Shown here: piece by piece, positions 4,301-21,194 of the stretch
Numbering within the stretch: the first letter of the stretch is position 1
Layout: every line of letters begins with the position of its first letter
Assembly: GCA_017995075.1 (NCBI GenBank)
Contig: JAGOJO010000003.1
Coordinates: 25,220 to 83,228, forward strand
DNA length: 58,009 nucleotides
Direction: 5' to 3'
From: Bacteroidia bacterium
GTDB taxonomy: Bacteria; Bacteroidota; Bacteroidia; AKYH767-A; OLB10
Translations under genes and position numbers: made by a program
Notes under the pieces: model-generated
The model's input: the letters and a program-made list of their open reading frames with translations, nothing else
Databases searched by the model: none
What the model was told of the DNA's origin: nothing

Positions 4301-4972
4301 ATATACATCACCATTCACGGGATGTACTACCATTCGGTTTACGAAGGAGAAATTTGCGTTGTTGTTTGTGGATGCCAGTTGTGTGAATGTTGCTCCACCA
4401 TCAATACTTTTCCAGATACCATCTCCGGTAATTGCATCTGCATTGAAATATCCTTCTCCGCTGCCGAAATAAATAACCTGAGGGTTAGACACAGACTGGC
4501 AGATCGTAGTAATGGCTATGTTATCAAAAAAATCGTTGACGGGTGTCCAGTTGGGAGATGCTGCAGTTATATCTGTTGTTTTCCAGATTCCACCTCCTAC
4601 TCCTCCGGCAAATACTGTTTTACGTGTAGCATCATTCAAGTCGACAATGATGGCTCTTGTTCTTCCTCCTACATTCGATGGGCCGCGCTCTGTCCAGGTC
4701 ATGGAAAGTGCCCCGGCGATTTTACCTGTCTGTCCCTGTAAACGCAACTGGTCAGCATATGCATAAGCTGCCTGTAAACGCTCCCGGTGAATCTTCATCG
4801 TGGCTGGATCACGGGTCATGTCAAACTCCTGCTGTATAGCCAGATCCATCCGATCCCGCTTAGGAATCTTTACAATTTTTATGGACGAGTCAAAGTACCT
4901 GGCCATTCCCATCACAATTGTTATAGCTGTAGTGAGAACGATTACCGGTAGATTGAGGAATGACTTTTTCAT
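1301..4972 (-). CDS. T9SS-sorted BNR/sortilin-type propeller protein with PKD domain
   Basis: 1223-residue secreted protein. It has an N-terminal hydrophobic signal/anchor (about residues 7-24), then from about 110 to 740 many sortilin/BNR-like repeats (GIWKSIDGGATF, GLWRSQNGGTTW, YRSADGGNTF, WETRNGGTTW) expected to form beta-propellers. A PKD domain (WNFGDG, HTYNTPGVYTV) lies at about 765-850, a jelly-roll/MAM-like region at about 855-1035 and an Fn3-like module (YYRLRQMDFNG) at about 1040-1130. A T9SS type A C-terminal sorting domain covers about 1145-1223 (PTPVHDQL ... SGVYLLQV, ending KIIKE). The substrate is unknown; BNR-propeller T9SS proteins are generally surface-bound adhesins or glycan-binding proteins. 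It is convergent with rnr and divergent from the gene at 5154. No TAnnTTTG box was found upstream on its strand. Architecture is clear, function is not. Confidence 0.9.
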   Translation of the reverse strand: MKKSFLNLPVIVLTTAITIVMGMARYFDSSIKIVKIPKRDRMDLAIQQEFDMTRDPATMKIHRERLQAAYAYADQLRLQGQTGKIAGALSMTWTERGPSNVGGRTRAIIVDLNDATRKTVFAGGVGGGIWKTTDITAASPNWTPVNDFFDNIAITTICQSVSNPQVIYFGSGEGYFNADAITGDGIWKSIDGGATFTQLASTNNNANFSFVNRMVVHPVNGDVYAATSTGLWRSQNGGTTWTEVLGAGNGSTVDFMSDVDIAADNAIVVSTGRFSTGADGVYRSTTGNAASFTKLNTGANGFPTTGFDRVEIATAPSNAAVIYALTQNAAGAIGGIYKTTNTGTSWSTCTLPADADPGVGADFTRGQAWYDLIVAVDPNNANTAMVGGVDLFRTSNGGTSWTQVSHWYGGFGYQEVHADHHSIVYAPGSSSAVYFGNDGGVYSSADGGTVISFKSTNYNVTQYYACAINPGLGSNQFMAGAQDNGTQQYSVPGINATVEVTGGDGAFCHIDQSDPNYQFSSYVYNNIYRSADGGNTFTSIRASNTGSFINPSDFDDAGNNFYASYSAGMYTRLLNAHTGTTWNNITIAAFNAGRVTAVRDAPVTVNRVYFGLNNGRVVRVDNANAATPTGTHINNGAGMPASATVSCIEVENDDENHLLVTYSNYGVTSVWETRNGGTTWTNVEGNLPDMPVRGALFNPTDSSEALIATEVGVWSTDELNGASTVWGPSNSGLANVRTDMLQIRSSDYMVIAATHGRGLFSTDIFSPARADFVADNTIVYTGKPVNFTDGSVKSTSWAWNFGDGFTSTVKNPSHTYNTPGVYTVILSINGGGGALTATKTSYITVLPNRGTPYNIVAGGNFETNFNDFASTQNNATKWQRGNSAVAGKNGVRSGSAAWVTLLTGNYTDNGNCMLYTPNYNLSAAGTYTLQFYRKNLFEIGYDGFRVEYSLNKGDSWFILGTTGVNWYDFANGAGGTAFPAGEPFFNATQSAYTLASRDISFLAGNPNVAFRFVFKADFTVNAAGVAIDDFEIFGPSNVPLPVTMGSFKGKAIDNYNLLDWTTLSELSNEGFYVQRSDDAKEFEELGFVKGKGNSTIYNAYQFIDRNPLQQIISYYRLRQMDFNGTETMSKTIAIKRGDSNSSSLSVFPTPVHDQLHLLFDQPGNHRFELKIYNLKGKLLYSQQAISEGVVYTLPLAGPSFTSGVYLLQVIEDGEAYSTKIIKE

Positions 4973-6068: not shown

Positions 6069-8702
6069 TTACTGTTTTACGATTCTTGTCTTAACTACCT
6101 TTTCACCTTCGCCGATCATTACCACATAAGTACCCGGACTCAACTTATCTGCGAGTGGTAAATAAATAGTATTTGCACCGGTTGTTACATCCAGTGTGCC
6201 ACTGAACACTTGTTTACCTACCTGATCATAAATGCGCAGGGTTTGGGTTCCTTCGGCGGCCGATTCAAAGTTCAGACTCAATCCTGAGGAGAACGGATTC
6301 GGTGACGCAGAAAGATTAGTAAGGGTAGACGCTGTAGTTGATGTTTTAGTACCGAAACGAATAGATTTCGGACCGAAGAATTCTTTTTGTCCATTAATAT
6401 CAACCTGACGTAAGCGGTAATAGTTCATGCCCGTTGCAGGAGATGGATCAATTACCTCGTATTTACGAACTGTTGAGCTGTTACCAGCTGCATCAACTTT
6501 CTTCAGGTCTTTATATGTACTGCCATCCAATGAACGCTCCACAGTGAAATAATCACTGTTGTGTTCGCTAGAGGTAGCCCACGAAATTTTTACAGTTCCA
6601 TTGTTTTCTTTTACGTCGAATGTAGAAAGTTGAACCGGCAAAGGATTAGAACCATCAGATGTAATACCGAATTGGCCAAGAGAGGTGATTCCACCACGGT
6701 TTACGATTGGTGAAGCAGGACTTCCTGAAGCAGCTATATGTGTACCTGTAGTTTCCCAGGAGCTGATAGCATTATCGCGGCGGAAGAGATGAAGCTTGGT
6801 ATAGTCACTGATTCCGGTGAAACCTTCTGCAATAACGTTTGCAGTAAAGTCGCCTCCACTGAATCCGTTTCCGGCGGTGAGTGTCCACCAACCTGAACCG
6901 ATAGTGCTGCATTCATCACCTGCATCATTCAATGGTAAACCAACATTCCCCGGATATCCGGTAGTAAATGCAGCAGCAATTGTACCACCTGTTGGAGCAG
7001 AGGTAAAGCTGGTGTTGAATCCGTTGTAGTCTGTTGCAGTTCCCAGCGGGAATAAAATATTGGATGCAGTTGAAGAAGCCATCCAACGTGTAAAGTTTCC
7101 GATAATATGTCCTGAGGTACGTGTAAGTGTACCGGTTGATGATGTGCTTGTTCCTAATGTTAATGTATTACCGCCTGTTGTTACATTGCCTGTAGAAAGA
7201 ATAAGCTCAGTAGAAGCAGTAACAGAGTTGCTGAGTGAAACACCGGCAGAATTATTAATAGTTAGATTTCGTACTGTAGCCGGCAAGCCATTACCTGATG
7301 TTTGTGATGAGGCACCGTTGTATTCATAATCTGCACCGGTATTAAAAGTGCGTGTACCGGTTACCCGGATATTTCCTGTTGCACCGCTTGATGTGATACC
7401 TGCAGTAGAAGTAATTCCAAGTTTACCACCATTGGTAACTGTAAAGGATCCTCCGCCATTCACCGTAGTTGTAGCAGCAGCCATTTGCAGATAGGCATTA
7501 TTGTTTACATTGTAGTTCACTGCATTGGAAACAGCACCACCGGAGGTGAACGTCTGCATACTTGTTCCATTGAAGTTAATTGTACTTGTTCCGCTTCCGG
7601 ATTCTGTCAAGGTACCGCCGCTATGTGTAAAGTTCCCTTTGATATTTAATGTAGCATTGCCATTTGATTCATTCATATCCACTGTTCCACCGGTGAAGGA
7701 AAAATTACCGGTAACATTCATCGTAACATTTCCTGATCCGCTCACCAGAATAAGACTTCCGGTGCCGCTTTTGGTAAAATTGCCGGTAACAGAAATTGTG
7801 GCTGTACCGAAACTATTGTTTGCCTGAAGTATACCTCCGGAGATATTCATATCACCGCTTACATTCATTGTTCCATTTCCGAGCGATTGTGAGGCACGGA
7901 ATTCGCCTCCGGTTTGTGAATAGTTACCACCAACCGTTAATGTACGGGATGTAAAATTGTCTGTCAGATATAAGCGATTTGCTCCTGTGCTGGTCACAAT
8001 AAAATCACCCTGTATATTCAATGTATTATTGATGCCAAGGGATGTGGACAAAGAAGTACAATTCCAGTTCAGATTACCAAAGTTCTGTGTTATACCGCCC
8101 GGAATGGTAGTGGTAACGCCAGCGATCTGACATGTGGAAGCTGCGTCCCAGGTTGCAGTATGAATTGTACCACCATTGATAGCATGGATATATTCTCCGC
8201 CAGCATTATGCGCTACGGTTGCTGATGTGTTGAGCGTAAATGTTCCTGAGTTCGACAGAATACCGCTATTGGAAACATCTGTAGCCGTCCCATTTGCAAT
8301 AGTAAGCGTTCGTGTTGCACTTATATTTACGCGACCACCTGATTCGATGACCAGTTGATCAGCGGTAACACTCGCCGCTACTGTCACAGTATGACCATTG
8401 CGGATTGTAATAATGTTATTGGTAGATGTAGGTGTTGAAACTGCATTCACCCAGATTGTACCATTGAATCGCTCCCAGGTACCAGTGCTGCCCCAGTTTC
8501 CGGAGGCTTTCGAACGATATTCATCCGTCACTGCCGCTTTGGCCGGAGTCGTTTGCGTAGATTGATAGAATAATACAATCAACACAATCATCAGTGTTGA
8601 TACAGCCCCGCCAATGAGCAACATTCGTTGTTGCTGAGTCAGTTTGGTAGTCAGTCGCGAAGTATTGCGCTGACGATTTGGATTTCCGGTAGAGGAATTC
8701 AT
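6069..8702 (-). CDS. T9SS-sorted beta-rich surface protein (repeat/beta-helix type)
   Basis: 877-residue protein with an unusual N-terminus: about 26 polar, Gln/Arg/Thr-rich residues precede a hydrophobic segment (about 27-48, MLLIGGAVSTLMIVLIVLF), giving a signal/anchor with a long n-region. After it come a G8-like segment (GNWGSTGTWERFNG ... ITIRNGHTVTV) and a long Thr/Ser/Asn/Gly-rich stretch to about 560, with recurring SGTxTxNVxGNFxxSGG units spaced roughly 25-30 residues, suggestive of a parallel beta-helix. An Fn3-like module (YYRLRQVDINGQ) is at about 690-785. A T9SS sorting domain is at about 794-877 (SPNPFSSGL ... PGTYVVMI, ending RIVKQ). Function is unknown; a surface adhesin or matrix protein is likely. 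The start ATG has no strong competitor. Confidence 0.88.
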   Translation of the reverse strand: MNSSTGNPNRQRNTSRLTTKLTQQQRMLLIGGAVSTLMIVLIVLFYQSTQTTPAKAAVTDEYRSKASGNWGSTGTWERFNGTIWVNAVSTPTSTNNIITIRNGHTVTVAASVTADQLVIESGGRVNISATRTLTIANGTATDVSNSGILSNSGTFTLNTSATVAHNAGGEYIHAINGGTIHTATWDAASTCQIAGVTTTIPGGITQNFGNLNWNCTSLSTSLGINNTLNIQGDFIVTSTGANRLYLTDNFTSRTLTVGGNYSQTGGEFRASQSLGNGTMNVSGDMNISGGILQANNSFGTATISVTGNFTKSGTGSLILVSGSGNVTMNVTGNFSFTGGTVDMNESNGNATLNIKGNFTHSGGTLTESGSGTSTINFNGTSMQTFTSGGAVSNAVNYNVNNNAYLQMAAATTTVNGGGSFTVTNGGKLGITSTAGITSSGATGNIRVTGTRTFNTGADYEYNGASSQTSGNGLPATVRNLTINNSAGVSLSNSVTASTELILSTGNVTTGGNTLTLGTSTSSTGTLTRTSGHIIGNFTRWMASSTASNILFPLGTATDYNGFNTSFTSAPTGGTIAAAFTTGYPGNVGLPLNDAGDECSTIGSGWWTLTAGNGFSGGDFTANVIAEGFTGISDYTKLHLFRRDNAISSWETTGTHIAASGSPASPIVNRGGITSLGQFGITSDGSNPLPVQLSTFDVKENNGTVKISWATSSEHNSDYFTVERSLDGSTYKDLKKVDAAGNSSTVRKYEVIDPSPATGMNYYRLRQVDINGQKEFFGPKSIRFGTKTSTTASTLTNLSASPNPFSSGLSLNFESAAEGTQTLRIYDQVGKQVFSGTLDVTTGANTIYLPLADKLSPGTYVVMIGEGEKVVKTRIVKQ

Positions 8703-8794
8703 AGTTTATGGTGTCTTTCGAACTGATTTTTACGGGGAAAGTGCAAGAGATGTTACCCTTTCAGGCAAAAAGAGTTTAGACACACACATGAAGA

Positions 8795-8826
8795 TTTGCT
8801 TATATGAAGGATTCCCTTTACTTTTC
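8795..8826 (+). promoter_or_regulatory. Promoter of the DUF1761 gene
   Basis: TTTG at 8795-8798, then 20 bp, then TACTTTTC at 8819-8826: the Bacteroidota -33/-7 layout with one mismatch at the last base of the -7 box. The leader would be about 15 nt. A minus-strand TAGGTTTG (8840-8833) lies just beyond and could serve the 6069-8702 gene with a 125-nt leader. Confidence 0.45.
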
Positions 8827-9365: not shown

Positions 9366-9396
9366 AAAAGGGAGGGCTTCGGTTCTCCCTTTTTTA
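9366..9396 (+). terminator. Rho-independent terminator
   Basis: Nine-base-pair stem AAAAGGGAG/CTCCCTTTT (9366-9374 with 9385-9393) with loop GGCTTCGGTT, running into a T-rich tail. Ends the DUF1761 transcript. Confidence 0.85.
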
Positions 9397-9423: not shown

Positions 9424-9457
9424 TTCCGGCCGGAAGTAAACCATCTCTAGCCGAGAT
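9424..9457 (+). promoter_or_regulatory. Two adjacent inverted repeats upstream of the PKD-sigma block
   Basis: A perfect 12-bp palindrome TTCCGGCCGGAA (9424-9435) is followed by ATCTC-TAGCC-GAGAT (9443-9457). They lie 37-70 bp upstream of the ATG at 9494. No TAnnTTTG box is present in this gap, so the transcript may use an alternative sigma factor; these sites are candidate operators. Confidence 0.35.
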
Positions 9458-9493
9458 ACGTGATACCTAATGAACACATACACCAATTAAGTT

Positions 9494-12100
9494 ATGAAAT
9501 ACATTTATTCACTACTCCTGGCATTGTTTATCGCTGTAGGAGTGCAAGCTCAAAACTGTGCCTGGACAGTCAATGCTATTTCCGGAAACACAGCTGTATT
9601 TAATGCTCAAACCGGTTTTCCGGCATTTCTGTATTCTGCAGAATGGGATCTCGGAGATGGAAGTATTATCCATGCGCCGATTGGACCATTTACCTATCAA
9701 TATGCAAGTCCGGGGGTATATAATGTATGCCTGACTATTTATGACGATTCAACGAATTTGCCGGTTTGCAATTATTGCGATACACTCTCTATTCAACCGG
9801 CAGGTAATTGTTCGTTTTCATTCATGCAGGATTCTGTAAATCCAGCTATAGTTCAATTTTGGGCCCTTTCATCCAATCCGGCGCTCGGGTACATGTGGAA
9901 TTATGGTGATGGAACCGCTACCGGAAGTGGTGCGGCAACTTCACATACGTACGCCTCACCAGGAGCATACTCAGTAACAATGTATGAATATACAAACGGG
10001 GTGCTTTCCTGTACATATACGGCTACGGTAGTTGCAGGAAGCAATACATCTGCTACTTGCGGATTTGCCTACGTGCCCGGAGCACCTGGAGCACAAAACA
10101 CTTACACGTTCAATGGTGTTTCCAACTTAACGAATCCAACTTACTTATGGGATTTCGGTGATAACACACCAATGCAGAATGGCCAAACCACCACTCATCC
10201 TTTTGCAGCAGCAGGTGCCTATACTGTAACAATGTATGCTATTGACGGGGTGGATACCTGTGTTTATTCAATGGTGATCCCTGTTGCCTTTGGAGGAAGT
10301 TGCTCCTTCTTAACTACCCCTGATTCCTCAAATGCAAATGCCTTCTTCTTTAATGCATTTTCAGCCAACAGTAATACAATTATGAATTGGTCTTTTGGCG
10401 ATGGTACATCTGCTACCGGTTTGAATGTTTATCATGCTTATAATACCGTTGGCACATTTACTGTTTGTATTTCTGAAGTAGATTTCATGGGCTCGGTTGT
10501 ATGTACTTATTGTCAGAACATCACTATTGGCGGTGGTCCAGCACCAAGCTGTAACTTTACTGTTAACAATAGTCCGGCAAATCCTACAATCTACGGATTC
10601 TTTATCCCCCAGGCAGCAGGTGTCGCCTACTATTGGAATCTTGGTAATGGCCAAACACAAACAGGAAACAATGTTGCTGTAAACTATGCTCCCGGCACTT
10701 ATACCATTTGCTTGACGGCTAATGACGGGAATACCAGCAACACTTGTTGTACAACGATTGTTGTCACAGGTTCTCCTAACTGTAGCTTCACCTATTTCCC
10801 TGACTCAGCCAACGCCAATACGTATTATTTCAATGCTTCACCATCTCAATCGGGCTCAACAATTATGTGGCATTTTGGTGATAGCACAACTTCTGTTGGA
10901 CAAAGTATTTCACATACTTATGCTGGTCCGGGTTCGTATTATGTTTGCATGACAGAGATTGATCCTGCAACTGGTGCTACACTTTGCAGCTACTGTACAA
11001 CAATTACTGTTTCATCTAATGGAAATTGTTCTTTCTCTATAACTTCTTCTCCGGGTAATCCGAGTGTAGTGACGTTCACTGCGAACTCATTGATCGGTAC
11101 CTCTTTCTTCTGGGATTTCGGTGATAACTCTACTGGTGTAGGCCAAAATATCACACATACCTTTGCAAGTCCCGGAGTTTACACTGTATGTTTAAGTATT
11201 GGAATTGGTGGAGCAATTACCTGCACATATTGTCAAACGATCACTATCCCTGGAAACAGTTGGTGTCAGGCGGCCTTTACTTCTGTAAGTCTTGGTCTCA
11301 ATGCCTACTTCATCGATCAATCGTCAATTATTCCGATCACGATGCCTCCGGTTCCACCTCCAGTAAACTACTCATGGAGTTTTGGTGATGGCTCATCAAG
11401 CACACTTCAGTTCCCGAACCACCAGTATGCTGCACCAGGATCATATATGGTATGCCTCACAGCAAGTACAGTTGGATGCACCTCTACTTTCTGTGATACA
11501 ATTGTGATTGATACTGTGATCAACAACCCTGTTACCTGCAACGCCTTCTTTGTATTCACACAAACAAGTCCATACAATGTAGTGGGTGTAAACCTGAGCA
11601 GTGGAATCAACCTGAACTTCAACTGGAGTTTCGGTGATGGTTCAACAGCAAACACTCCATACCCAACACATCAATACAACGGAACAGGAAGTTACCTTGT
11701 ATGCCTTACAGTATCTGATGCTAACGGATGTTCTTCGACCTACTGCGATACACTCACTGTTGATTCATTAGGAAACGTGGTGTACAGAGGGGCAACATCA
11801 TCCGGATTCACCCTTAACATTGTTGCACCTAACGTACTTGGAGTAGATGATAACCAGCCTGCCATCGGAAGCCTTTATCCGGTTCCTGCTAGCAGCGAGT
11901 TGAATATCCGCTTCAGCGATAACGTAAAAGAAGAAGTAACTTATAACGTACTCAGCATCGACGGACGTCGCATCATGAACGGTATGTTAAATGGAACTAC
12001 TGCTACACTGAACATAGAAAATTTACAGCAAGGCATCTATTTGTTAGAAGTAATTACTTCAGATGGACAACGCGACAGTAAATACTTTGTAAAACAATAA
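9494..12100 (+). CDS. T9SS-sorted protein with nine PKD repeats
   Basis: 868-residue exported protein. Signal peptide MKYIYSLLLALFIAVGVQAQ. From about 20 to 760 it holds nine PKD-type Ig-like repeats of about 80 residues. Each starts with a C-x-F or similar, carries W-x-(F/Y/L)-G-(D/N) (WDLGDG, WNYGDG, WDFGDN, WSFGDG, WNLGNG, WHFGDS and so on), an H-x-Y/F-x-x-P-G-x-Y turn and a Cys-rich end such as CTYCQTITI, so intra-repeat disulfides are likely. A T9SS sorting domain is at about 785-868 (YPVPASSELN ... QGIYLLEV, ending YFVKQ). PKD arrays act as rigid spacers or ligand-binding modules on the surface. No catalytic domain is visible. It lies 35 bp upstream of the ECF sigma gene with no terminator, so cotranscription is likely, making it a candidate input or output of that circuit. 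Confidence 0.9.
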   Translation: MKYIYSLLLALFIAVGVQAQNCAWTVNAISGNTAVFNAQTGFPAFLYSAEWDLGDGSIIHAPIGPFTYQYASPGVYNVCLTIYDDSTNLPVCNYCDTLSIQPAGNCSFSFMQDSVNPAIVQFWALSSNPALGYMWNYGDGTATGSGAATSHTYASPGAYSVTMYEYTNGVLSCTYTATVVAGSNTSATCGFAYVPGAPGAQNTYTFNGVSNLTNPTYLWDFGDNTPMQNGQTTTHPFAAAGAYTVTMYAIDGVDTCVYSMVIPVAFGGSCSFLTTPDSSNANAFFFNAFSANSNTIMNWSFGDGTSATGLNVYHAYNTVGTFTVCISEVDFMGSVVCTYCQNITIGGGPAPSCNFTVNNSPANPTIYGFFIPQAAGVAYYWNLGNGQTQTGNNVAVNYAPGTYTICLTANDGNTSNTCCTTIVVTGSPNCSFTYFPDSANANTYYFNASPSQSGSTIMWHFGDSTTSVGQSISHTYAGPGSYYVCMTEIDPATGATLCSYCTTITVSSNGNCSFSITSSPGNPSVVTFTANSLIGTSFFWDFGDNSTGVGQNITHTFASPGVYTVCLSIGIGGAITCTYCQTITIPGNSWCQAAFTSVSLGLNAYFIDQSSIIPITMPPVPPPVNYSWSFGDGSSSTLQFPNHQYAAPGSYMVCLTASTVGCTSTFCDTIVIDTVINNPVTCNAFFVFTQTSPYNVVGVNLSSGINLNFNWSFGDGSTANTPYPTHQYNGTGSYLVCLTVSDANGCSSTYCDTLTVDSLGNVVYRGATSSGFTLNIVAPNVLGVDDNQPAIGSLYPVPASSELNIRFSDNVKEEVTYNVLSIDGRRIMNGMLNGTTATLNIENLQQGIYLLEVITSDGQRDSKYFVKQ

Positions 12101-12135
12101 TCCCTTGTTGAGCTGATTGCCCTCACCGGCATGGT

Positions 12136-12714
12136 ATGAAGCCTACAATAGAACTCCTCGAGAAATGCCGGTATAATAACCGGAAGGCGCATCACGAACT
12201 TTACGTGATGTGCTTTCCGGTTTTATATGCTGTTTGTTCACGTTACCGACAGCATAAGGAAGATCGTATGTCGTCGCTGAATATGATTTTTCTGAAATTG
12301 ATCCAGCACATGGATGATTACCTGAAACGCGGCGATGATGTCCCTTTTGAACAATGGTTACGCAGAGTCAGTGTAAACCATATTATTGATGAGTTCAGAA
12401 AAGAGAAGCGGTACAAAGAGCTGATCAGTCTGAACGAAGAGACGCCCGATGATTTACATCCGGTGAATTTCGAAATGGAAACGAAGTATGATACCGAAGA
12501 AATTCAACGAGCTATCGATAGTCTACCAACAATGAGTAAGACAGTGTTTAACCTTTACGCAATTGATGGGTATAAACACGAAGAAATAGCCGGAATGCTT
12601 GGCATCTCCAGTGGCACCTCCAAAGCACATCTCTTCAAAGCAAGAAAGAAGCTGCAGGAGATGTTGGCGGGAATGAAAAAAAAAACAGACTGGAATAAAA
12701 CAGTAGTACAATGA
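12136..12714 (+). CDS. ECF-type RNA polymerase sigma factor
   Basis: 192-residue sigma-70 family protein of the ECF group. Region 2 is at about 15-95 (AHHELYVMCFPVLYAVCSRY ... FEQWLRRVSVNHIIDEFRKEKR, the -10 recognition helix). Region 4 helix-turn-helix is at about 125-178 (LPTMSKTVFNLYAIDGYKHEEIAGMLGISSGTSKAHLFKARKKLQ). It would direct RNA polymerase to a dedicated promoter set. The gene overlaps the next by 4 bp (ATGA at 12711-12714), the usual arrangement for a sigma/anti-sigma pair. A run of ten A residues (12676-12685) lies about 10 codons before the stop; it could allow slippage. An ATG at 12131 is followed at once by a stop, so 12136 is the start. Confidence 0.9.
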   Translation: MKPTIELLEKCRYNNRKAHHELYVMCFPVLYAVCSRYRQHKEDRMSSLNMIFLKLIQHMDDYLKRGDDVPFEQWLRRVSVNHIIDEFRKEKRYKELISLNEETPDDLHPVNFEMETKYDTEEIQRAIDSLPTMSKTVFNLYAIDGYKHEEIAGMLGISSGTSKAHLFKARKKLQEMLAGMKKKTDWNKTVVQ

Positions 12715-14144
12715 CGGACGACAATAACAAAATCCCAAATCCGGAGGAATTCTGGCCGGATGCTGAGAAGCTGCTCGACGGGCACTTCAAGGCGAAAAGA
12801 AGACGGGCTGCCTGGATGGTAGCTGCTCTGTTGCTGCTGATCACTACTTCGGTGGTGGTGATGTGGCCTCGCAATGAGGAGAATCAAGCTGCAGTTGAGT
12901 CTGCCGCAGTAGATCCTGTCGTTGCTGCTGTCTCCGATGTTCCTGAAGGTGTTGAACCTTCCGCTGTTTCCACTGCACCGTCGGCAGTGAGTGAAACAAC
13001 TGTTACCAGGAATGAAAATAATGATGAGTTAAATACAACAAACACCACTTCCCCCGGGAGGATAGTTGCGGAGAAACCAGTCGGTGCAGAAAAGCCAAAT
13101 GCTGTACTACCTGTCTCCGCAACAACCCCCGGAATTCATGTGCAGCCTGTAGTATCTACAACAATTCAGTCATCTGCTCCTTCCACAAAGCAGCCGGATG
13201 AAGTGAATGTATCTACATCGATTAACTCAGTTGCTACCACTACACCAGAAGTATCTCTCCCCACTACTATTGATTTCCTCTCTTCATTGCCAGCGCTATC
13301 CTTCACATCAGATTTCACTCATCCTGAGATAAGCGGAATGGTGGATGTAAAGAAAAAACCGAAATCAAAGAGTACACTTGGTATTATGGGTTATGCAGGT
13401 GTAAACTATGTTGACAAAGTAGTGTATAGTCCGGGAAATACAGTCTACATGCAACGCCTCGAAGAAGAAGAGTCTGCTACAATATTACCTTATGGAGGTA
13501 TTCAGCTTTCCAGGGGAGCAGGGAAATTTGATATCCGGATGGGAATTGATTTCTCGGTAATAGGGGAGAAGGTGAATTACTCGCCTTATAAAAACGGTAC
13601 TTATTACAATTCCTACCTCGATTACGATCCATACACCTATACAGTTACTGATACTGATAGCGCCTATATCTTTGGAATGCTGTTCCTGAATACAACAACA
13701 GTAGTGTACAACGACAGTATCCTTGTAACTAAAACAGATACGCTGGATGGCCGCCATTATGATGCTACAATACTTGCTGCGAATGGTATTAATCGTTGGT
13801 ATCTGGTAAGTCTTCCTATCGAGATCGCCTATCAGCTTAAATCAGGCCGTTTTGGTGTTGGAGTGAATGCTGGTATCGCCCCGGGAATGATTGTAAGGTC
13901 AGAGGGAAAATATTTGCTCAAAGATGAAAGCGGAATAAGCGAAATAAGTCGTGAGAGCAAAGGAGACTTTATGTTGCATCTCAGTGGAGGACTAGAATTC
14001 AGTTACCTCCTTGGTGACCGGTGCCGGTTAATGTTGCGCCCACAGGCCAGATATTTCCTTACACCGGTAGAGGAAGATAACGGAGCATCCAAGAATTACA
14101 GAACCTTTGGTGTATCTGCAGGTTTGATGTATATGATTCGGTAA
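12711..14144 (+). CDS. Putative dual membrane-spanning anti-sigma factor (inner-membrane helix plus outer-membrane beta-barrel)
   Basis: 477 residues in four visible parts. A short acidic/basic cytoplasmic segment (1-34, with PNPEEFWPDAEKLLDGHFKAKRRR) comes first, then one transmembrane helix (about 35-52). A low-complexity Ser/Thr/Val/Pro/Glu linker runs from about 53 to 205. The C-terminal domain (about 210-477) has alternating amphipathic strands (GIMGYAGVNYVDKVVY, FGVGVNAGIAPGM, FGVSAGLMYMIR) and ends in a terminal strand typical of an outer-membrane barrel. One chain with a helix for the inner membrane and a barrel for the outer would span the envelope. This matches the architecture I recall for Dma-family anti-sigma factors of Bacteroides thetaiotaomicron. 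Its 4-bp overlap with the ECF sigma gene supports an anti-sigma role. Sequence similarity to Dma proteins was not tested. Confidence 0.72.
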   Translation: MTDDNNKIPNPEEFWPDAEKLLDGHFKAKRRRAAWMVAALLLLITTSVVVMWPRNEENQAAVESAAVDPVVAAVSDVPEGVEPSAVSTAPSAVSETTVTRNENNDELNTTNTTSPGRIVAEKPVGAEKPNAVLPVSATTPGIHVQPVVSTTIQSSAPSTKQPDEVNVSTSINSVATTTPEVSLPTTIDFLSSLPALSFTSDFTHPEISGMVDVKKKPKSKSTLGIMGYAGVNYVDKVVYSPGNTVYMQRLEEEESATILPYGGIQLSRGAGKFDIRMGIDFSVIGEKVNYSPYKNGTYYNSYLDYDPYTYTVTDTDSAYIFGMLFLNTTTVVYNDSILVTKTDTLDGRHYDATILAANGINRWYLVSLPIEIAYQLKSGRFGVGVNAGIAPGMIVRSEGKYLLKDESGISEISRESKGDFMLHLSGGLEFSYLLGDRCRLMLRPQARYFLTPVEEDNGASKNYRTFGVSAGLMYMIR

Positions 14145-14246
14145 GCGGACTTCATCTTTCTTACGAATACCGATACAAAACCCCAGATGACCGTTTTTTA
14201 AACGAAACCGGATACTATTTCGCTTGTTTCGCCGTACTTTCATCGG

Positions 14247-15338
14247 GTGAAAAACGTGAACTACCGCATTTTACTGCATGTAGCAGGATGTCTGACCTTC
14301 CTGTTTCTGCCAATTTTATTTTCTCCCTTCGATCGAACACTCCTCGAGTCATTTCAAAATCCATTCGAGATGCGCGACTTTATGAGTCATGTACTCATGA
14401 TCATTTTTTTCTATTTCCATCTCTTTGGTTTGTTACCACGATTCTTTGAACAAAAGAAATACCTGCCCTATATCGGCTTTCTGATCATTTCCTTGTTTAT
14501 CATCACTGCCACACCCAATGTGATTTATCCGCATGGTCATCCTCGGAAACCTGATCACCGGCATTTTCCGGAGAAAGAGTTTGCAGCTGAAGAGCAGGGC
14601 CGGCCGCTTCCTCCTCCATCTATAAATCATCCGCCACCGCCTCGCAATTTTCAACTTTTGCATCATATAGGACATAATTTATGGATGTTCCTGCTGATGG
14701 TCTTTTTTTCACTGTATCTGCATTCGTTGTACAGACGCAGAGAAATACAACGTGAAAAACTGAAAGCGGAACTCTCGTATCTGAAGGCACAGATTAATCC
14801 ACATTTTCTTTTTAATACGCTCAACAGTATCTATGGTACTGCACTCACAGAGAAATCACCGCAGACTGCTGAAGCGATCCTCAAATTATCCGGTTTAATG
14901 CGATATGTGCTTCTGGATGATCAGGAAGAATTTGTTTCGTTACAGCGGGAGCTCAGTTTTATCAGTGATTTTATCGAATTACAGAAAATTCGGCTAGGCG
15001 ATACCGTTAATATCCGTTATAATTCATCAGGAGATCCCGGCGATCTGCGGATAGCACCGTTAATTCTGATTACTTTTATTGAAAATGCATTCAAACATGG
15101 TGTCAACCCGGAGGAAAAATCAGAAATCGCTATTAGCATGCTCATTGCCAATGGTGCCGTTGAACTGATTGTTGACAATACAAAAGTGAATTATTTCAAT
15201 CCCGACAGAGGCATTGGAAGTCTGGGCCTGACGAATACCCGCAAACGACTTGATCTTTACTATTCCCGTAAACATCTCTTGCAGATCGACGAAACTTCCA
15301 GTAGGTTTACAGTAAGGTTAAACATACAATTACAATGA
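14247..15338 (+). CDS. LytS/YehU-type sensor histidine kinase
   Basis: 363-residue membrane histidine kinase of the His_kinase (LytS/YpdA-like) family. There are about four transmembrane segments (roughly 8-26, 45-64, 73-90, 142-162). Between the third and fourth is a striking His/Pro-rich loop (about 92-135: PHGHPRKPDHRHFP, then RPLPPPSINHPPPP), a candidate extracytoplasmic metal or ligand site. The phosphoacceptor motif LKAQINPHFLFNTLNS places His near 186; the ATP-binding N-box is APLILITFIENAFKHG (about 272), with a later GSLGLTNTRKRL glycine box. The start is GTG at 14247. The stop overlaps the response regulator by 4 bp, so the two form one two-component unit. It lies 100 bp after the putative anti-sigma gene with no clear terminator. 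Confidence 0.88.
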   Translation: MKNVNYRILLHVAGCLTFLFLPILFSPFDRTLLESFQNPFEMRDFMSHVLMIIFFYFHLFGLLPRFFEQKKYLPYIGFLIISLFIITATPNVIYPHGHPRKPDHRHFPEKEFAAEEQGRPLPPPSINHPPPPRNFQLLHHIGHNLWMFLLMVFFSLYLHSLYRRREIQREKLKAELSYLKAQINPHFLFNTLNSIYGTALTEKSPQTAEAILKLSGLMRYVLLDDQEEFVSLQRELSFISDFIELQKIRLGDTVNIRYNSSGDPGDLRIAPLILITFIENAFKHGVNPEEKSEIAISMLIANGAVELIVDNTKVNYFNPDRGIGSLGLTNTRKRLDLYYSRKHLLQIDETSSRFTVRLNIQLQ

Positions 15339-16030
15339 TTAAAGCCATTGCCATCGATGATGAACCACCTGCACTGAAGGTGATCGAAACGTATTGTGAG
15401 GCAGCGGAAGGAATCATCTTGCAACGAACCTTCACCCGACCTAGTGAAGCAGAACGATACATCAGCAAATATCCCGTGGACCTTATTTTTCTTGATATCA
15501 ATATGCCAAGTATTAATGGGATTGACTTTTATAAAAGTATCGGTCGAAAGGTCATGGTGATTTTTACTACAGCGCATGCGGAATTCGCCGTTGAAGGATT
15601 TAATATCAATGCACTTGATTTCCTCTTAAAACCAATCCGTAAAGAACGCTTTGATCAGGCTATTCAGAAGGCCATGGAACAATTTGATTTGCAACAGAAA
15701 TCAACCGACCCCTCCGACGCCTTTCTGCTCATACGTGCCGACTATAGCCTGCACAGAATCAAAGTGGAGGATATTTTATTGATTGAAGGATTGGATGATT
15801 ACCTGAAGATTCATCTGCCGGAGCAAAAAGTTGTAGTCACACGAATGACGATGAAAAACATGATGAGTGAATTAGCCCACTCTGAATTTGTAAGGGTTCA
15901 CAAGTCGTTTATAGTCCCGATGAAGAAAATTGAAAAGGTCCGTAATCGTATTATTTATATCAAAAACCGGGAGGTTCCCATCGGCAATTCGTACGAGGAA
16001 GAGTTTATGAAAGTACTCTCAAGGTATTAA
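15335..16030 (+). CDS. LytTR-family response regulator
   Basis: 231-residue response regulator. The receiver domain (about 1-115) has the acidic pair DDE at 8-10, phosphoacceptor Asp54 in LIFLDINMP, the Thr of FTTAH and the Lys of LLKPI. The LytTR DNA-binding domain (about 128-230) has the family patterns FLLIRADYSLHRIKVEDILLIEG, SEFVRVHKSFIVP and IPIGNSYEEEF-like end (here VPIGNSYEEEF). It is translationally coupled to the LytS kinase by a 4-bp ATGA overlap. Such pairs in Bacteroidota usually control a few nearby genes, so candidates here are the cargo gene at 16140 and the upstream sigma block. Targets are inference. Confidence 0.92.
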   Translation: MIKAIAIDDEPPALKVIETYCEAAEGIILQRTFTRPSEAERYISKYPVDLIFLDINMPSINGIDFYKSIGRKVMVIFTTAHAEFAVEGFNINALDFLLKPIRKERFDQAIQKAMEQFDLQQKSTDPSDAFLLIRADYSLHRIKVEDILLIEGLDDYLKIHLPEQKVVVTRMTMKNMMSELAHSEFVRVHKSFIVPMKKIEKVRNRIIYIKNREVPIGNSYEEEFMKVLSRY

Positions 16031-16110: not shown

Positions 16111-16118
16111 TATCTTTG
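16111..16118 (+). promoter_or_regulatory. Probable -7 promoter box (TATCTTTG)
   Basis: Exact TAnnTTTG match 22 bp upstream of the ATG at 16140. It overlaps the in-frame TTG at 16116, which is therefore not the start. A -33 TTTG at normal spacing is not visible. Confidence 0.5.
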
Positions 16119-16139
16119 GTAGCTGAATCAATAATCCGC

Positions 16140-17516
16140 ATGAAATTAACTTCTATTCTCCGACTTTGTGGCTTCCTGTTATTATCAGGAAGTGTACACG
16201 CCCAATCCAATAATGCACTGGCCTTTGATGGAACAAACGACGCAGTTACCGTTTCCGGTGCTTCTGCATTGATTGCCAACTCTGCCGGCATCTCTCTCAC
16301 TTGTTGGGTATATCCTACCAACGCAGCACCTTCTTTCCCCAACTTCGACGGGTTTGCAGGGATTCGTAATAACACGGATGCGGATTTTTATCTCCTGCAG
16401 TTCAGCGCTACAAGCGTAGAGGCCCGTTTCAGAGGAACTTCCGGAATTGCGTATGATATTATTGCACCGGTACTCACATTGAACGCCTGGAATCACCTTG
16501 CATTTACATATGATGGATCGTATCTCCGTCTCTTTAAAAACGGAATTCTAGCCGATTCATTGGCTGCTTCTGATGTAATCCTGAACACCAACGAAAGTAT
16601 GTTGATTGGTGATCAGCTGTTCGGTACTACGCACTACTATCTCACAGGAAAAATGGATGAAGTAAGTTTGTGGAGTCGCGCACTGCAACCGGCTGAACTG
16701 GTTTGCATGCCGGTGAATGGAATTGATACTTCTTCTGCAACTGATCTGGAACTCTACTATCGTTTCAATCAGGGAACAGCTTCACAGAATAATACTACCA
16801 TTACTACACTCACTGACGAAACCGGAACTATCAACGGTACACTCAGCGGTTTTCAGATGAACGGTTCAACATCTAACTTCGTTGCAGGGGCAGTGCTGAT
16901 TACTCCGGCAGTAGCGTTTAGTTGTCCGGACGTTCCTTATAACTGGAATGGTACTAACATTACAACTCCCGGAGTATATTTTGATACACTCACCAGTGAG
17001 GCAGGATGTGATTCTATTGTGCAACTGACCTTGTCATTGCTCTCTGTCAATACCTCTGTTACACAAAGTGGTGCTACCCTTACTGCAGGTCACGTTGGAC
17101 TTTTTTACCAATGGCTCGACTGCAATAACGGATTTGCGCCGATCGCCGGAGCTACCTCTCAGTCGTACACTCCATCTGTTAACGGTAGTTATGCTGTGAT
17201 AGTACAACAAAGCGGATGCTTCGATACTTCATCCTGTATTACTGTCACCAACGTGAGTATCGCAGAACAGCAGTTGTCTGATAATATCTCCGTTTATCCT
17301 TCTATAACATCCGGACTTCTTTATGTTGAGGTGCAACAGGTGTTACCGGCTGTTATGCTAGAACTGATCGACCTGAGTGGACGTACTATTCGACAGGAAA
17401 CACTCAGTAATGTACGTACCCATACAATGGACTTGTCCGGACTCGCTGCCGGTGTTTATCAGGTACGATTGACAACACCGGAAGGGTCAGTAACACGCAA
17501 AGTAGTGAAGGAATAA
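16140..17516 (+). CDS. T9SS-sorted LamG-domain protein
   Basis: 458-residue secreted protein. Signal peptide MKLTSILRLCGFLLLSGSVHAQ. A LamG/concanavalin-like jelly-roll domain (about 24-225) has the usual patterns ALAFDGTNDAVTV, SLTCWVYPTN, NAWNHLAFTYDGSYLRLFKNG, MDEVSLWSRAL and LELYYRFNQG. Then an Ig-like/linker region (about 245-370) with C-x-x-x-P-Y-N-W and CDSIVQLTLS motifs common in Bacteroidota surface proteins. A T9SS sorting domain is at about 380-458 (VYPSITSGL ... AAGVYQVRL, ending KVVKE). LamG domains bind glycans, but specificity is unknown. The start is fixed by the signal peptide and by the -7 box just upstream. A good terminator follows. Confidence 0.9.
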   Translation: MKLTSILRLCGFLLLSGSVHAQSNNALAFDGTNDAVTVSGASALIANSAGISLTCWVYPTNAAPSFPNFDGFAGIRNNTDADFYLLQFSATSVEARFRGTSGIAYDIIAPVLTLNAWNHLAFTYDGSYLRLFKNGILADSLAASDVILNTNESMLIGDQLFGTTHYYLTGKMDEVSLWSRALQPAELVCMPVNGIDTSSATDLELYYRFNQGTASQNNTTITTLTDETGTINGTLSGFQMNGSTSNFVAGAVLITPAVAFSCPDVPYNWNGTNITTPGVYFDTLTSEAGCDSIVQLTLSLLSVNTSVTQSGATLTAGHVGLFYQWLDCNNGFAPIAGATSQSYTPSVNGSYAVIVQQSGCFDTSSCITVTNVSIAEQQLSDNISVYPSITSGLLYVEVQQVLPAVMLELIDLSGRTIRQETLSNVRTHTMDLSGLAAGVYQVRLTTPEGSVTRKVVKE

Positions 17517-17571: not shown

Positions 17572-17732
17572 TCGCTAAATATAGGGATTACCGGATGCCA
17601 TCCACCGGTTTTTTAATGTGTCAGCGCCATTTTCCAGAACCCGGGTGGGTGTCAAAAAGCCGACAATAGGAGTTGAATTTTGTTTTTGTTACCTTTACCC
17701 GAATACATACTCCTATCAACAATAAGTCTATT

Positions 17733-20700
17733 ATGAAGAAAAATTACATGGCCATCAGCCGCCTGCTTTTAACCGGAATCTTCCTGATCACATCCCTCGC
17801 TCTCAAAGCCGGCGATCATGGAGACACTACAGTTGTGAACACGTTTAACTTCAACAGCCCTGCCCGCAGCGGAATGTTTCAGTTCCCCAACGATTCCACT
17901 AAAACGTATGAAAAAATTATCATGCTTTACAAGATGCGTTGTAAAGGTGGACAAATTTCTACGTCCACGCAGCGTGATCTTGGATGTGGCGAGTGGGATT
18001 ATAACTGCTACACCTATATCGTTGACTCTTCCCAAACGGATTCTGTGAAGGCTACGAGTCCAAATTATGCTATCAGCAACTGGTCTAATACTTCATATCC
18101 GTATGTGACAAATCCATTGTACAATTATGTACAGACTACGCAACAGGATGTAGTATACACCAGCACCATATCAGAAACTACAGCTTTATCCGGCAATGGA
18201 TCTCTTACGCTGGCTCATCCGCTCGGATCTGCGTCGCCGTTAGGACGCGTACAGTATCTCTGGACAGCCGCCGAATTGACTTCAGCCGGACTCACCGCCG
18301 GAGATATTACCGGACTCGGACTCGATCTTACCACCTTCGGGAATGATCTGAACAACCTGCGCATCCGCATCAAAACAACTTCACAATCGATTTTGAGTTA
18401 TCAGTCGGCAGAGTTAAGCGGTTTTACGGAAGTCTACTATCTGAATTCTTCTTTCGGCGCTACAGGAAACCGTCGATTTAATTTCCATACACCTTTCAAC
18501 TGGGACGGAACTTCCAACCTGCTCGTAGAATTTTCCTACACCAATGCAGCCGCAACATCCAACAATAATGTTTCCGGCACTAATAGCGGATTCACCAGCG
18601 GACTCTACACTGCCGGAGCTGATAATTATATGGAAGCCAACGGAGGTGCCGGCACTATTGATGTACCGGGTTCTGTTGGAAGTATGATCACGAATAAAAT
18701 CACGCTTGCATTCTGGTGCTATGGAGATCCGGCACGTTTGCCTGCCAACACCAGTATTTTCGAAGCACTCGATGCCAACGGAGTACGACAACTGAACCTG
18801 CACCTTCCATGGAGCGATGGAAGTGTATATTGGGATTGCGGAAATGATGGAACAGGCTACGATCGGATCAATAAAGCGGCTACCACAGCACAAACAGAAG
18901 GGCAATGGAATTTCTGGGCAGTTACGAAGGATGCCACTACCGGCTCAATGAAGATTTATCTCAACGGAGTATTATGGCATAGCGGAACAGCGAAAACGAA
19001 ACCAATCAGCATTGCATCCATGAAAATCAGCCGTGCTATTTCCGGAAATTACCTTTATTATGGAAATATCGACGAGTTCAGTATCTGGAACACCGAGCTC
19101 TCCGCAGGTGCTGTACAGGAAATTATGTATCGCAATGTAACTCCATCGTTCCCTGATTATGCCAACCTGGTTGCCTATTATCAGTTCAACGAAGGAACAG
19201 GATCAAATGTCTCTGATGCATCACCTAACGGTTACGATGCTACGCAATTCAACCTGACCTGGAGAAACCGCCGTGGAACAGAGTTGTTCCGCAATTTTGT
19301 AGAAACAGCAGAACGTCCCAATACAACTTTTGTAAAAGGAACCTATACTACGCAGGTCACTCCGGTAACTGTGCTAGACTCTACTGCCATCGCTGCAAAC
19401 TCTGTTATTGAGTACACTATACTTAACAATAATCTTACTGTAGTAGATACCAATCTTTACTGGGCTGCTAACAGTTATGTATATACGTACGACGAATTCG
19501 GTGCAAAACTGGATTCAACACTTGTTAATGCCAACGACACATTACAGGTTGTTACACTGAATTATTACAGTAAGTTCCCTGCACGCATCGAGCTCATCAA
19601 CTTCATTACGCCTTACGGAATCGGTCTTGATATGAATGGACTCACCGGTAAAACATGGATGTTTGATGTAACCGATTATGCACCGATTCTCCGTGGAAAC
19701 AAGTACATGGTAATGGACGGTGGGAAAAATCAGGAAGATAACGACATTACATTTGTGTATTACGAAGGAACGCCTCCCCGCGATGTTCATTCACTTCAGC
19801 AAATCTGGCCAAATGGTTCACGCGCAGAAATATCTTACGGACAGATTCTCGCCAATGAATTCTTTGAAGCACGCGACATCCAGTTATCTGCAAACTCATC
19901 AATGTGGAAAATCCGCTCACAAATCAGCGGACACGGACAAGAAGGAGAGTTTATCTCCCGCGTACATACATTACGACTGAATAACCAAACCAACTACTCA
20001 CGCGCTGTATGGACAGAGTGTGCTGCGAATCCGATTTATCCTCAGGGTGGAACATGGGTGTATGACCGTGCAGGATGGTGCCCGGGCGCTTCTGTAGATC
20101 TCAAAGAATATGATATCACAGGACAGGTAACTGCCGGACAATTAATCAACCTTGATTATTCATTACCTAATGCCAGCAACATCGGCGACTCCCGTTACCG
20201 CATCAATAATCAGCTGGTAAGTTATGGCGCACCTAATTTCACACTGGATGCAAGTTTGAGTTACATTAAATATCCTACCAATCGTGTAGAATACGAACGA
20301 CTCAATCCAATCTGCAATCAGCCGGTTGTTGCTATTAAAAACACCGGTTCAACACCACTTACCTCTGTAGATATTACCTATGGAAGGATGGGCGGAACGA
20401 TGTCAACGTATACCTGGACCGGAAGTCTCAATTTCCTGCAGGAAGCGGAAGTGGTATTACCACAACCAGCCTGGTTAAGTTCAAATACCAATGAGTTTAT
20501 TGCCATCGTAAGCAATCCAAACAATGCAACGGATCAGTATGGTTTGAACGATACGCTCATTAACACATTCAACTATCCGACAGTACTGCCACAGAATTTT
20601 TATTTCGAGTTGCGCACCAATAACAACGGAACGCATACCTCGTACACATTAAAAGACAGTCAGGGAAATATCGTAGTTAACCGCACAGGATTAGCAGCGA

Positions 20701-21194
20701 ACACCACTTATCGTGATACAGTGAATCTAACACAGGATTGCTACACCTTATTACTCACAGATTTTGGTGACGATGGATTAAGCTGGTGGGCAAATACTGC
20801 ACAGGGAACAGGATACTTCCGTATTCGTTCTGCAACGAGTCCGGTAATCCTCAAAGTATTTAACCCTGATTTCGGTGATAATATCTACCAGCAATTCACC
20901 GTAAACTATACAGTACCTGTAAATGAAATTGGCGGCTTTTCATCACCGCTAGAAGTATATCCTAATCCGGCGAAAGATCTGATTCAGGTAGCCTTCTCCG
21001 CTCCACAACTTGCACAGGTACGTGTTGAACTACGAAATGTGTTGGGACAAACATTACTTACGCAGGAAGTCACTGCCTCTGAAACAAAACAAACATTACA
21101 GTTAGATGTAAATCAGTTTGAAGCCGGAGTATATTATGTAGTTGTACAATCCGGTACAGAGCAAAATATGCAAAAGGTAATTATTCAACGATAG
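17733..21194 (+). CDS. T9SS-sorted PNGase F-like protein with inserted LamG domain
   Basis: 1153-residue secreted protein. Signal peptide about 1-27 (ISRLLLTGIFLITSLALKAG). The first ~90 residues and the stretch about 650-860 resemble peptide-N-glycosidase F. The N-terminal block has MRCKGGQISTSTQRDLGCGEWDYNCYTYI; the later block has SGHGQEGEFISRVHTLRLNN, then GGTWVYDRAGWCPG and DLKEYDITGQV, patterns of the PNGase F C-terminal domain. A LamG jelly-roll (about 290-490: KITLAFWCYGDP, EGQWNFWAVTKD, IDEFSIWNTELS, VAYYQFNEGTG) is inserted between. A T9SS sorting domain is at about 1066-1153 (VYPNPAKDL ... AGVYYVVV, ending KVIIQR). PNGase F cleaves N-glycans from Asn. Whether the catalytic acids survive was not established by alignment. 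An upstream TTG at 17673 is in frame but adds no signal sequence. Confidence 0.82.
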   Translation: MKKNYMAISRLLLTGIFLITSLALKAGDHGDTTVVNTFNFNSPARSGMFQFPNDSTKTYEKIIMLYKMRCKGGQISTSTQRDLGCGEWDYNCYTYIVDSSQTDSVKATSPNYAISNWSNTSYPYVTNPLYNYVQTTQQDVVYTSTISETTALSGNGSLTLAHPLGSASPLGRVQYLWTAAELTSAGLTAGDITGLGLDLTTFGNDLNNLRIRIKTTSQSILSYQSAELSGFTEVYYLNSSFGATGNRRFNFHTPFNWDGTSNLLVEFSYTNAAATSNNNVSGTNSGFTSGLYTAGADNYMEANGGAGTIDVPGSVGSMITNKITLAFWCYGDPARLPANTSIFEALDANGVRQLNLHLPWSDGSVYWDCGNDGTGYDRINKAATTAQTEGQWNFWAVTKDATTGSMKIYLNGVLWHSGTAKTKPISIASMKISRAISGNYLYYGNIDEFSIWNTELSAGAVQEIMYRNVTPSFPDYANLVAYYQFNEGTGSNVSDASPNGYDATQFNLTWRNRRGTELFRNFVETAERPNTTFVKGTYTTQVTPVTVLDSTAIAANSVIEYTILNNNLTVVDTNLYWAANSYVYTYDEFGAKLDSTLVNANDTLQVVTLNYYSKFPARIELINFITPYGIGLDMNGLTGKTWMFDVTDYAPILRGNKYMVMDGGKNQEDNDITFVYYEGTPPRDVHSLQQIWPNGSRAEISYGQILANEFFEARDIQLSANSSMWKIRSQISGHGQEGEFISRVHTLRLNNQTNYSRAVWTECAANPIYPQGGTWVYDRAGWCPGASVDLKEYDITGQVTAGQLINLDYSLPNASNIGDSRYRINNQLVSYGAPNFTLDASLSYIKYPTNRVEYERLNPICNQPVVAIKNTGSTPLTSVDITYGRMGGTMSTYTWTGSLNFLQEAEVVLPQPAWLSSNTNEFIAIVSNPNNATDQYGLNDTLINTFNYPTVLPQNFYFELRTNNNGTHTSYTLKDSQGNIVVNRTGLAANTTYRDTVNLTQDCYTLLLTDFGDDGLSWWANTAQGTGYFRIRSATSPVILKVFNPDFGDNIYQQFTVNYTVPVNEIGGFSSPLEVYPNPAKDLIQVAFSAPQLAQVRVELRNVLGQTLLTQEVTASETKQTLQLDVNQFEAGVYYVVVQSGTEQNMQKVIIQR

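Follow-up and report, generated by a model that had tools for sequence, protein, structure and literature searches.

Why should a gene for an exported surface protein stand directly before the genes of a sigma factor and its anti-sigma factor? The window (the whole stretch of DNA that was analyzed, 58,009 nucleotides from a Bacteroidia bacterium) contains five consecutive open reading frames on the plus strand, at 9494-12100, 12136-12714, 12711-14144, 14247-15338, and 15335-16030. They encode an 868-residue PKD surface protein, a 192-residue ECF sigma factor with Sigma70_r2/r4 domains, an anti-sigma factor, a LytS-type histidine kinase, and a LytTR response regulator. ATGA overlaps join the stop of the sigma gene to the start of the anti-sigma gene (12711-12714) and the kinase gene to the regulator gene (15335-15338), a layout that agrees with the initial annotation, which had treated all five genes as one envelope-spanning signaling block. 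We think it probable that the first three, for the PKD protein, the sigma factor, and the anti-sigma factor, form a single autoregulated operon whose sigma factor is freed by disturbance of the outer membrane or of the cell surface. At the upstream boundary, a plus-strand hairpin resembling an intrinsic terminator (9366-9393; a 12-pair stem followed by a T-rich tail) lies 3' of a DUF1761 gene and, as a consensus match only, may set that gene apart from the PKD operon. Two early leads were discarded: a weak paralogue match on contig C6 is ordinary coding DNA, and PF20230, a first guess, was poor.

What kind of protein does the head gene encode? A signal-like N-terminus is followed by nine PKD repeats and, at the C-terminus, by a T9SS type A sorting domain (Por_Secre_tail; residues 794-863, at 11873-12082 on the plus strand) that exceeds the cut-offs of both models applied, PF18962 (3.7e-12; 46.8 bits, cut-off 27) and TIGR04183 (35.1 bits, cut-off 23). 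The protein thus combines the signal peptide and sorting domain by which T9SS type A cargo is recognized, and we infer that it is exported to the surface by this system. SprA, searched for with SprA_N (PF14349) in place of TIGR04189, which matched nowhere, controls included, is present in all 12 relatives examined and in 12 of 13 genomes overall; the PF14349 search did not find it in the window's own assembly, which is 80% complete. In one related locus the PKD head gene is duplicated in tandem before a single sigma/anti-sigma pair (L029:4531-6501 and 6643-8817). Two further T9SS proteins, both with LamG-like domains, are encoded in the window at 16116-17516 and 17673-21194, the latter with an additional PNGase F C-terminal domain; this downstream order is kept within the genus.

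The anti-sigma factor (12711-14144, plus strand) has no Pfam match above chance and no match by sequence to solved structures. It was modeled with AlphaFold2 from a 30-row alignment, which gave a helix at residues 11-51, disorder at 54-202, and a barrel at about 218-477 with strands within 221-476. Confidence per block was mostly pLDDT 70-97, falling below 50 in the loop at 300-355. Four parts can be distinguished. The N-terminal segment (residues 1-31; 12711-12803), with a conserved W..AE..LD.HF pattern, is presumed to bind sigma by analogy with the Dma family. A hydrophobic stretch at residues 33-51 (12807-12863), within the modeled helix, is the predicted inner-membrane helix. Residues 54-202 (12870-13316) are of low complexity, with pLDDT mostly below 50, and would form a disordered periplasmic tether. 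Residues 220-477 (13368-14141) are modeled as an eight-stranded OmpA-like outer-membrane barrel, which aligns with OmpA over 168 residues (Z 18.0, rmsd 2.5), with NspA (Z 17.0), and with OmpW (Z 15.7). Hydrophobicity, low complexity, and the model therefore bear out the single inner-membrane helix, linker, and C-terminal barrel described in the initial annotation. Its forecast of a closed barrel at about 210-477 is borne out by the AlphaFold2 model, in which the helix expected at 35-52 spans 11-51; the C-terminal domain is modeled as a barrel and not as a soluble fold.

Profile comparison placed the protein with a group of barrel anti-sigma factors, at 97% with close orthologues and 99.8% with a wider set. 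The group's first member, found in a Tannerellaceae genome, has an OMP_b-brl_2 barrel (PF13568), and the next gene encodes a NigD-like lipoprotein. In one Tannerellaceae locus (L099:6926-9593) the genes for sigma factor, barrel anti-sigma, and NigD-like lipoprotein adjoin, which recalls EcfO/Reo/NigD. The window's protein belongs to a kind already known, that of Dma and Reo, and the model, the profile comparison, and the published account of Dma (PMC13088901) together support the earlier suggestion of an anti-sigma factor reaching from the inner to the outer membrane. In one relative both genes lie in one frame, unlike those of the window, and a read-through model of its sigma factor and anti-sigma N-terminus as one chain gave confident helices. 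By analogy with Dma, the N-terminus of the window's protein would bind its sigma factor.

How closely does the locus follow its known counterparts? Dma proteins share the N-terminal sigma-binding part, the single inner-membrane helix, the disordered tether, the C-terminal barrel, and an adjacent ECF sigma gene (PMC13088901). The window's sigma factor may accordingly be called ECF21-type, a label taken from its Dma-type neighbor and from that paper's description of the group rather than from a group model. Dma2, which mainly regulates its own operon (PMC13088901), has DUF4858/DUF4943 proteins as neighbors, whereas here the head gene encodes a T9SS-sorted PKD array; anti-sigma factors of the Dma layout control vesiculation in Bacteroides thetaiotaomicron, and no such role is known for the window's operon. 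EcfO/Reo of Bacteroides fragilis and Phocaeicola vulgatus likewise has an anti-sigma factor that runs from cytoplasm to surface, a sigma gene strongly induced by envelope attack (33-fold upon toxin attack in Phocaeicola; PMC9308784), and surface proteins among its targets, and Reo has been proposed as an outer-membrane stress sensor (PMC13114119). Its regulon includes several NigD genes (PMC9308784, PMC13114119), in contrast to the one visible target here, the PKD/T9SS protein of the same operon. PorA-PorXY-SigP of Porphyromonas gingivalis (PMC7712824) also ties an Ig-like sorting-domain surface protein to an ECF sigma factor, but does so through a two-component path without a dual-membrane anti-sigma factor, and its regulon is the T9SS machine itself. 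In the open-access literature searched, no paper joins PKD or T9SS cargo to such anti-sigma factors. The T9SS-PKD operon variant and its predicted promoter were not found described there.

Is the association of the three genes more than chance? The conserved unit consists of the PKD/T9SS protein, the ECF sigma factor, and the anti-sigma factor. Anti-sigma matches occur in 17 of 100 related genomes, and all 11 good orthologues, the window's included, show the order PKD/T9SS-sigma-anti-sigma, with outer flanks that vary between most genera. Because this order and the succession of transmembrane helix, tether, and barrel are both retained in several families, we regard the association as more than chance. 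A scan of named genomes with the sigma alignment yielded 80 loci. Among the 94 ECF loci that could be scored, 28 carry a sorting-domain gene immediately upstream, against a background of about 5% of open reading frames in these loci, a comparison whose binomial P takes no account of descent. Across the sigma tree the presence of this upstream gene is strongly clustered (7 changes; 0 of 500 shuffles were as low), and it is found throughout the window's clade. Held-out genomes contain 19 sigma/anti-sigma loci, 13 of them with a sorting-domain gene, and the four strongest carry both PKD and promoter; one of the four (L197) is apparently from the same genome as L042. All these loci are related by descent, and none of the counts is independent. 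The neighborhood search that had been proposed for PKD protein, sigma factor, and barrel across Bacteroidota thus recovered a conserved trio, held-out genomes included.

Which genes would the freed sigma factor transcribe? A predicted ECF promoter lies on the plus strand at 9436-9464, with a -35 element GTAAACC (9436-9442), a 16-nt spacer, and a -10 element CGTGAT (9459-9464). Its core, GTAAACC-N16-CGTG (9436-9462), is 31 nt 5' of the PKD ATG and 3' of the hairpin at 9366-9393. Members of the window's clade have the same core 5' of their PKD gene, and a general form, (A/C)AACC-N16-CGT(G/A), precedes the T9SS head gene in 21 of the 25 related operons with enough upstream sequence (shuffle mean 0.07). 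All of them have a spacer of 16 nt, with no other length among 10 to 23. From its sequence and placement the motif is likely to act as a promoter. A narrower pattern, CGTGTW, was rejected, as it misses three genomes (G003, G007, G038) in which the sites are CGTGAT or GTCAACC. Among sub-clades further removed from the window, the strict motif is often missing even where a T9SS gene lies upstream.

Three exact matches occur in the window's own assembly. Two lie inside open reading frames (4316-4342 on the minus strand of the window, and C6:24941-24967) and were set aside, and only the one before the PKD gene is promoter-placed. A slightly stricter form gave 15 matches in 18 further genomes, nine operon-bearing and nine other: nine fall within open reading frames, and six are promoter-placed, all before the PKD gene, two of these being flagged as inside an open reading frame only through its extension 5' of the signal-peptide start. 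Matches with one mismatch were no commoner than in the reversed control, and a regulon based on them was dropped; weak targets could therefore be missed by the strict motif. At this strictness and in the genomes scanned, the PKD operon is the only visible sigma target. We therefore predict that an autoregulated Dma-type circuit has the PKD protein as its main output. The initial annotation had proposed this protein as a possible ligand, load, or target of the barrel; the promoter evidence recasts that claim, making it foremost a target, and of the sigma factor.

Taken together, the trio and its own predicted promoter suggest a circuit complete in itself, which would monitor the cell surface and produce a PKD surface protein. 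The N-terminal helix of the anti-sigma factor would hold the sigma factor at the inner membrane, and the disordered arm would cross the periplasm to the OmpA-like barrel in the outer membrane. Disturbance of the outer membrane or cell surface around the barrel would free the sigma factor, which would then transcribe its own operon from GTAAACC-N16-CGTG. More PKD-array protein would be made and exported by the T9SS, and more anti-sigma factor would reset the switch. Gene order, conservation, domain layout, and the motif and its position are read from sequence, and the barrel fold from the model; release of the sigma factor by outer-membrane disturbance would follow from the Dma/Reo literature, and the idea that the PKD protein acts back on the barrel is speculative. 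The analogy with Dma2 and EcfO/Reo and the promoter evidence thus make the PKD protein first of all an output.

Could the PKD protein also be a partner of the barrel? As a T9SS-exported ligand, plug, or load, its presence at the surface would keep the sigma factor held, and the operon would turn on if T9SS export failed or the PKD layer were lost, closing a feedback loop. Such a role would be added to the autoregulated operon, not exclude it, and that the protein is ligand or load is plausible, though less likely than not. The PKD protein and the barrel anti-sigma factor are co-conserved in one operon in several families. Other ECF21-type operons combine the anti-sigma factor with different beta-sandwich proteins of the surface, either PKD lipoproteins coupled 3' or SprB/CarboxypepD_reg T9SS proteins 5' of it, some anti-sigma factors themselves end in PKD and a T9SS type B-like sorting domain, and in P. 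gingivalis a sorting-domain protein, PorA, offers a precedent, its signal acting upstream of PorXY-SigP (PMC7712824). The role of regulated target, however, accounts for the PKD linkage without any contact.

It is improbable that the PKD gene is a mere syntenic neighbor with its own housekeeping transcription and that the sigma factor acts chiefly on other genes. Proteins sorted by the T9SS are frequent in these genomes, at the background level given above, which would favor a chance neighbor, but in the window an ECF-type promoter precedes the PKD gene and none precedes the sigma gene, and no TAnnTTTG-type site is found before the PKD gene. Moreover, in 9 of the 67 operons that have no T9SS gene the motif is found directly 5' of the sigma gene, and the genomes scanned contain no further promoter-placed copy.

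That all five genes form a single two-input unit, with LytS/LytTR (14247-15338, His_kinase; 15335-16030, Response_reg-LytTR) also driving the operon, is very unlikely: the pair follows the anti-sigma gene on the same strand after a 102-nt gap with no terminator-like site on that strand, yet it is found beside the anti-sigma gene in the window only and is absent there in every other orthologous locus, the slot in the same genus holding nothing extra in G003 and a methyltransferase gene in G002, and LytS relatives are located elsewhere in other genomes. The pair is a lineage-specific neighbor outside the conserved unit, and these differences leave unsupported the earlier idea that the two-component system supplies a second input.

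What would the autoregulated PKD operon mean for the cell? It is possible, though we give it less than even weight, that in environmental Bacteroidota the ECF21-type circuits are connected to the T9SS, with an exported PKD protein or an anti-sigma sorting domain as the outer-membrane reporter that controls sigma release. If so, the cell would read the status of secretion or of its surface layer directly in transcription. Anti-sigma factors of the Dma type have been described only recently, and the search for the signals to which they respond would be much simpler in a compact conserved operon that has a defined predicted promoter and only one predicted product at the surface. The promoter motif is in addition a means of locating such operons and their targets across Bacteroidota.

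Sister architectures occur in related loci. In 11 of these (L079, L093, L106, L109, and L232-L238) a T9SS type B-like domain replaces the anti-sigma barrel; the sigma gene precedes, and the protein consists of N-terminal segment, membrane helix, linker, and a PKD and type B-like C-terminus. The type B model scores below the NCBI cut-off in all four proteins scored, and motifs such as FTPNGDGLN are clear in most loci. A multi-PKD protein is encoded 3' of the anti-sigma gene in five of the seven loci L232-L238. These anti-sigma factors suggest an independent, direct link between the T9SS and transcription. Four of them are encoded at L079:3788-5065, L093:7477-8736, L106:7507-8769, and L109:7548-8726. 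By eye, GGCAACC or GCAACC, about 15-16 nt, and CGTC stand before the sigma gene in L079 and L233-L237, and such AACC...CGT sites look like a sister form of the promoter.

In 12 other loci (L049, L051, L054, L055, L057, L058, L061, L063, L067, L070, L076, and L080) the barrel anti-sigma gene is followed immediately, often at a distance of 0-5 nt, by a gene for a PKD protein of ~370 residues, mostly with a lipobox and with a conserved C-terminus. Eight more (L092, L094, L095, L098, L100, L103, L104, and L112) have a short anti-sigma factor of about 225-280 residues with no barrel, and the next gene encodes an outer-membrane-barrel-like protein of about 280-350 residues (PF13568 in L100 and L112), which looks like a split form of the same design.
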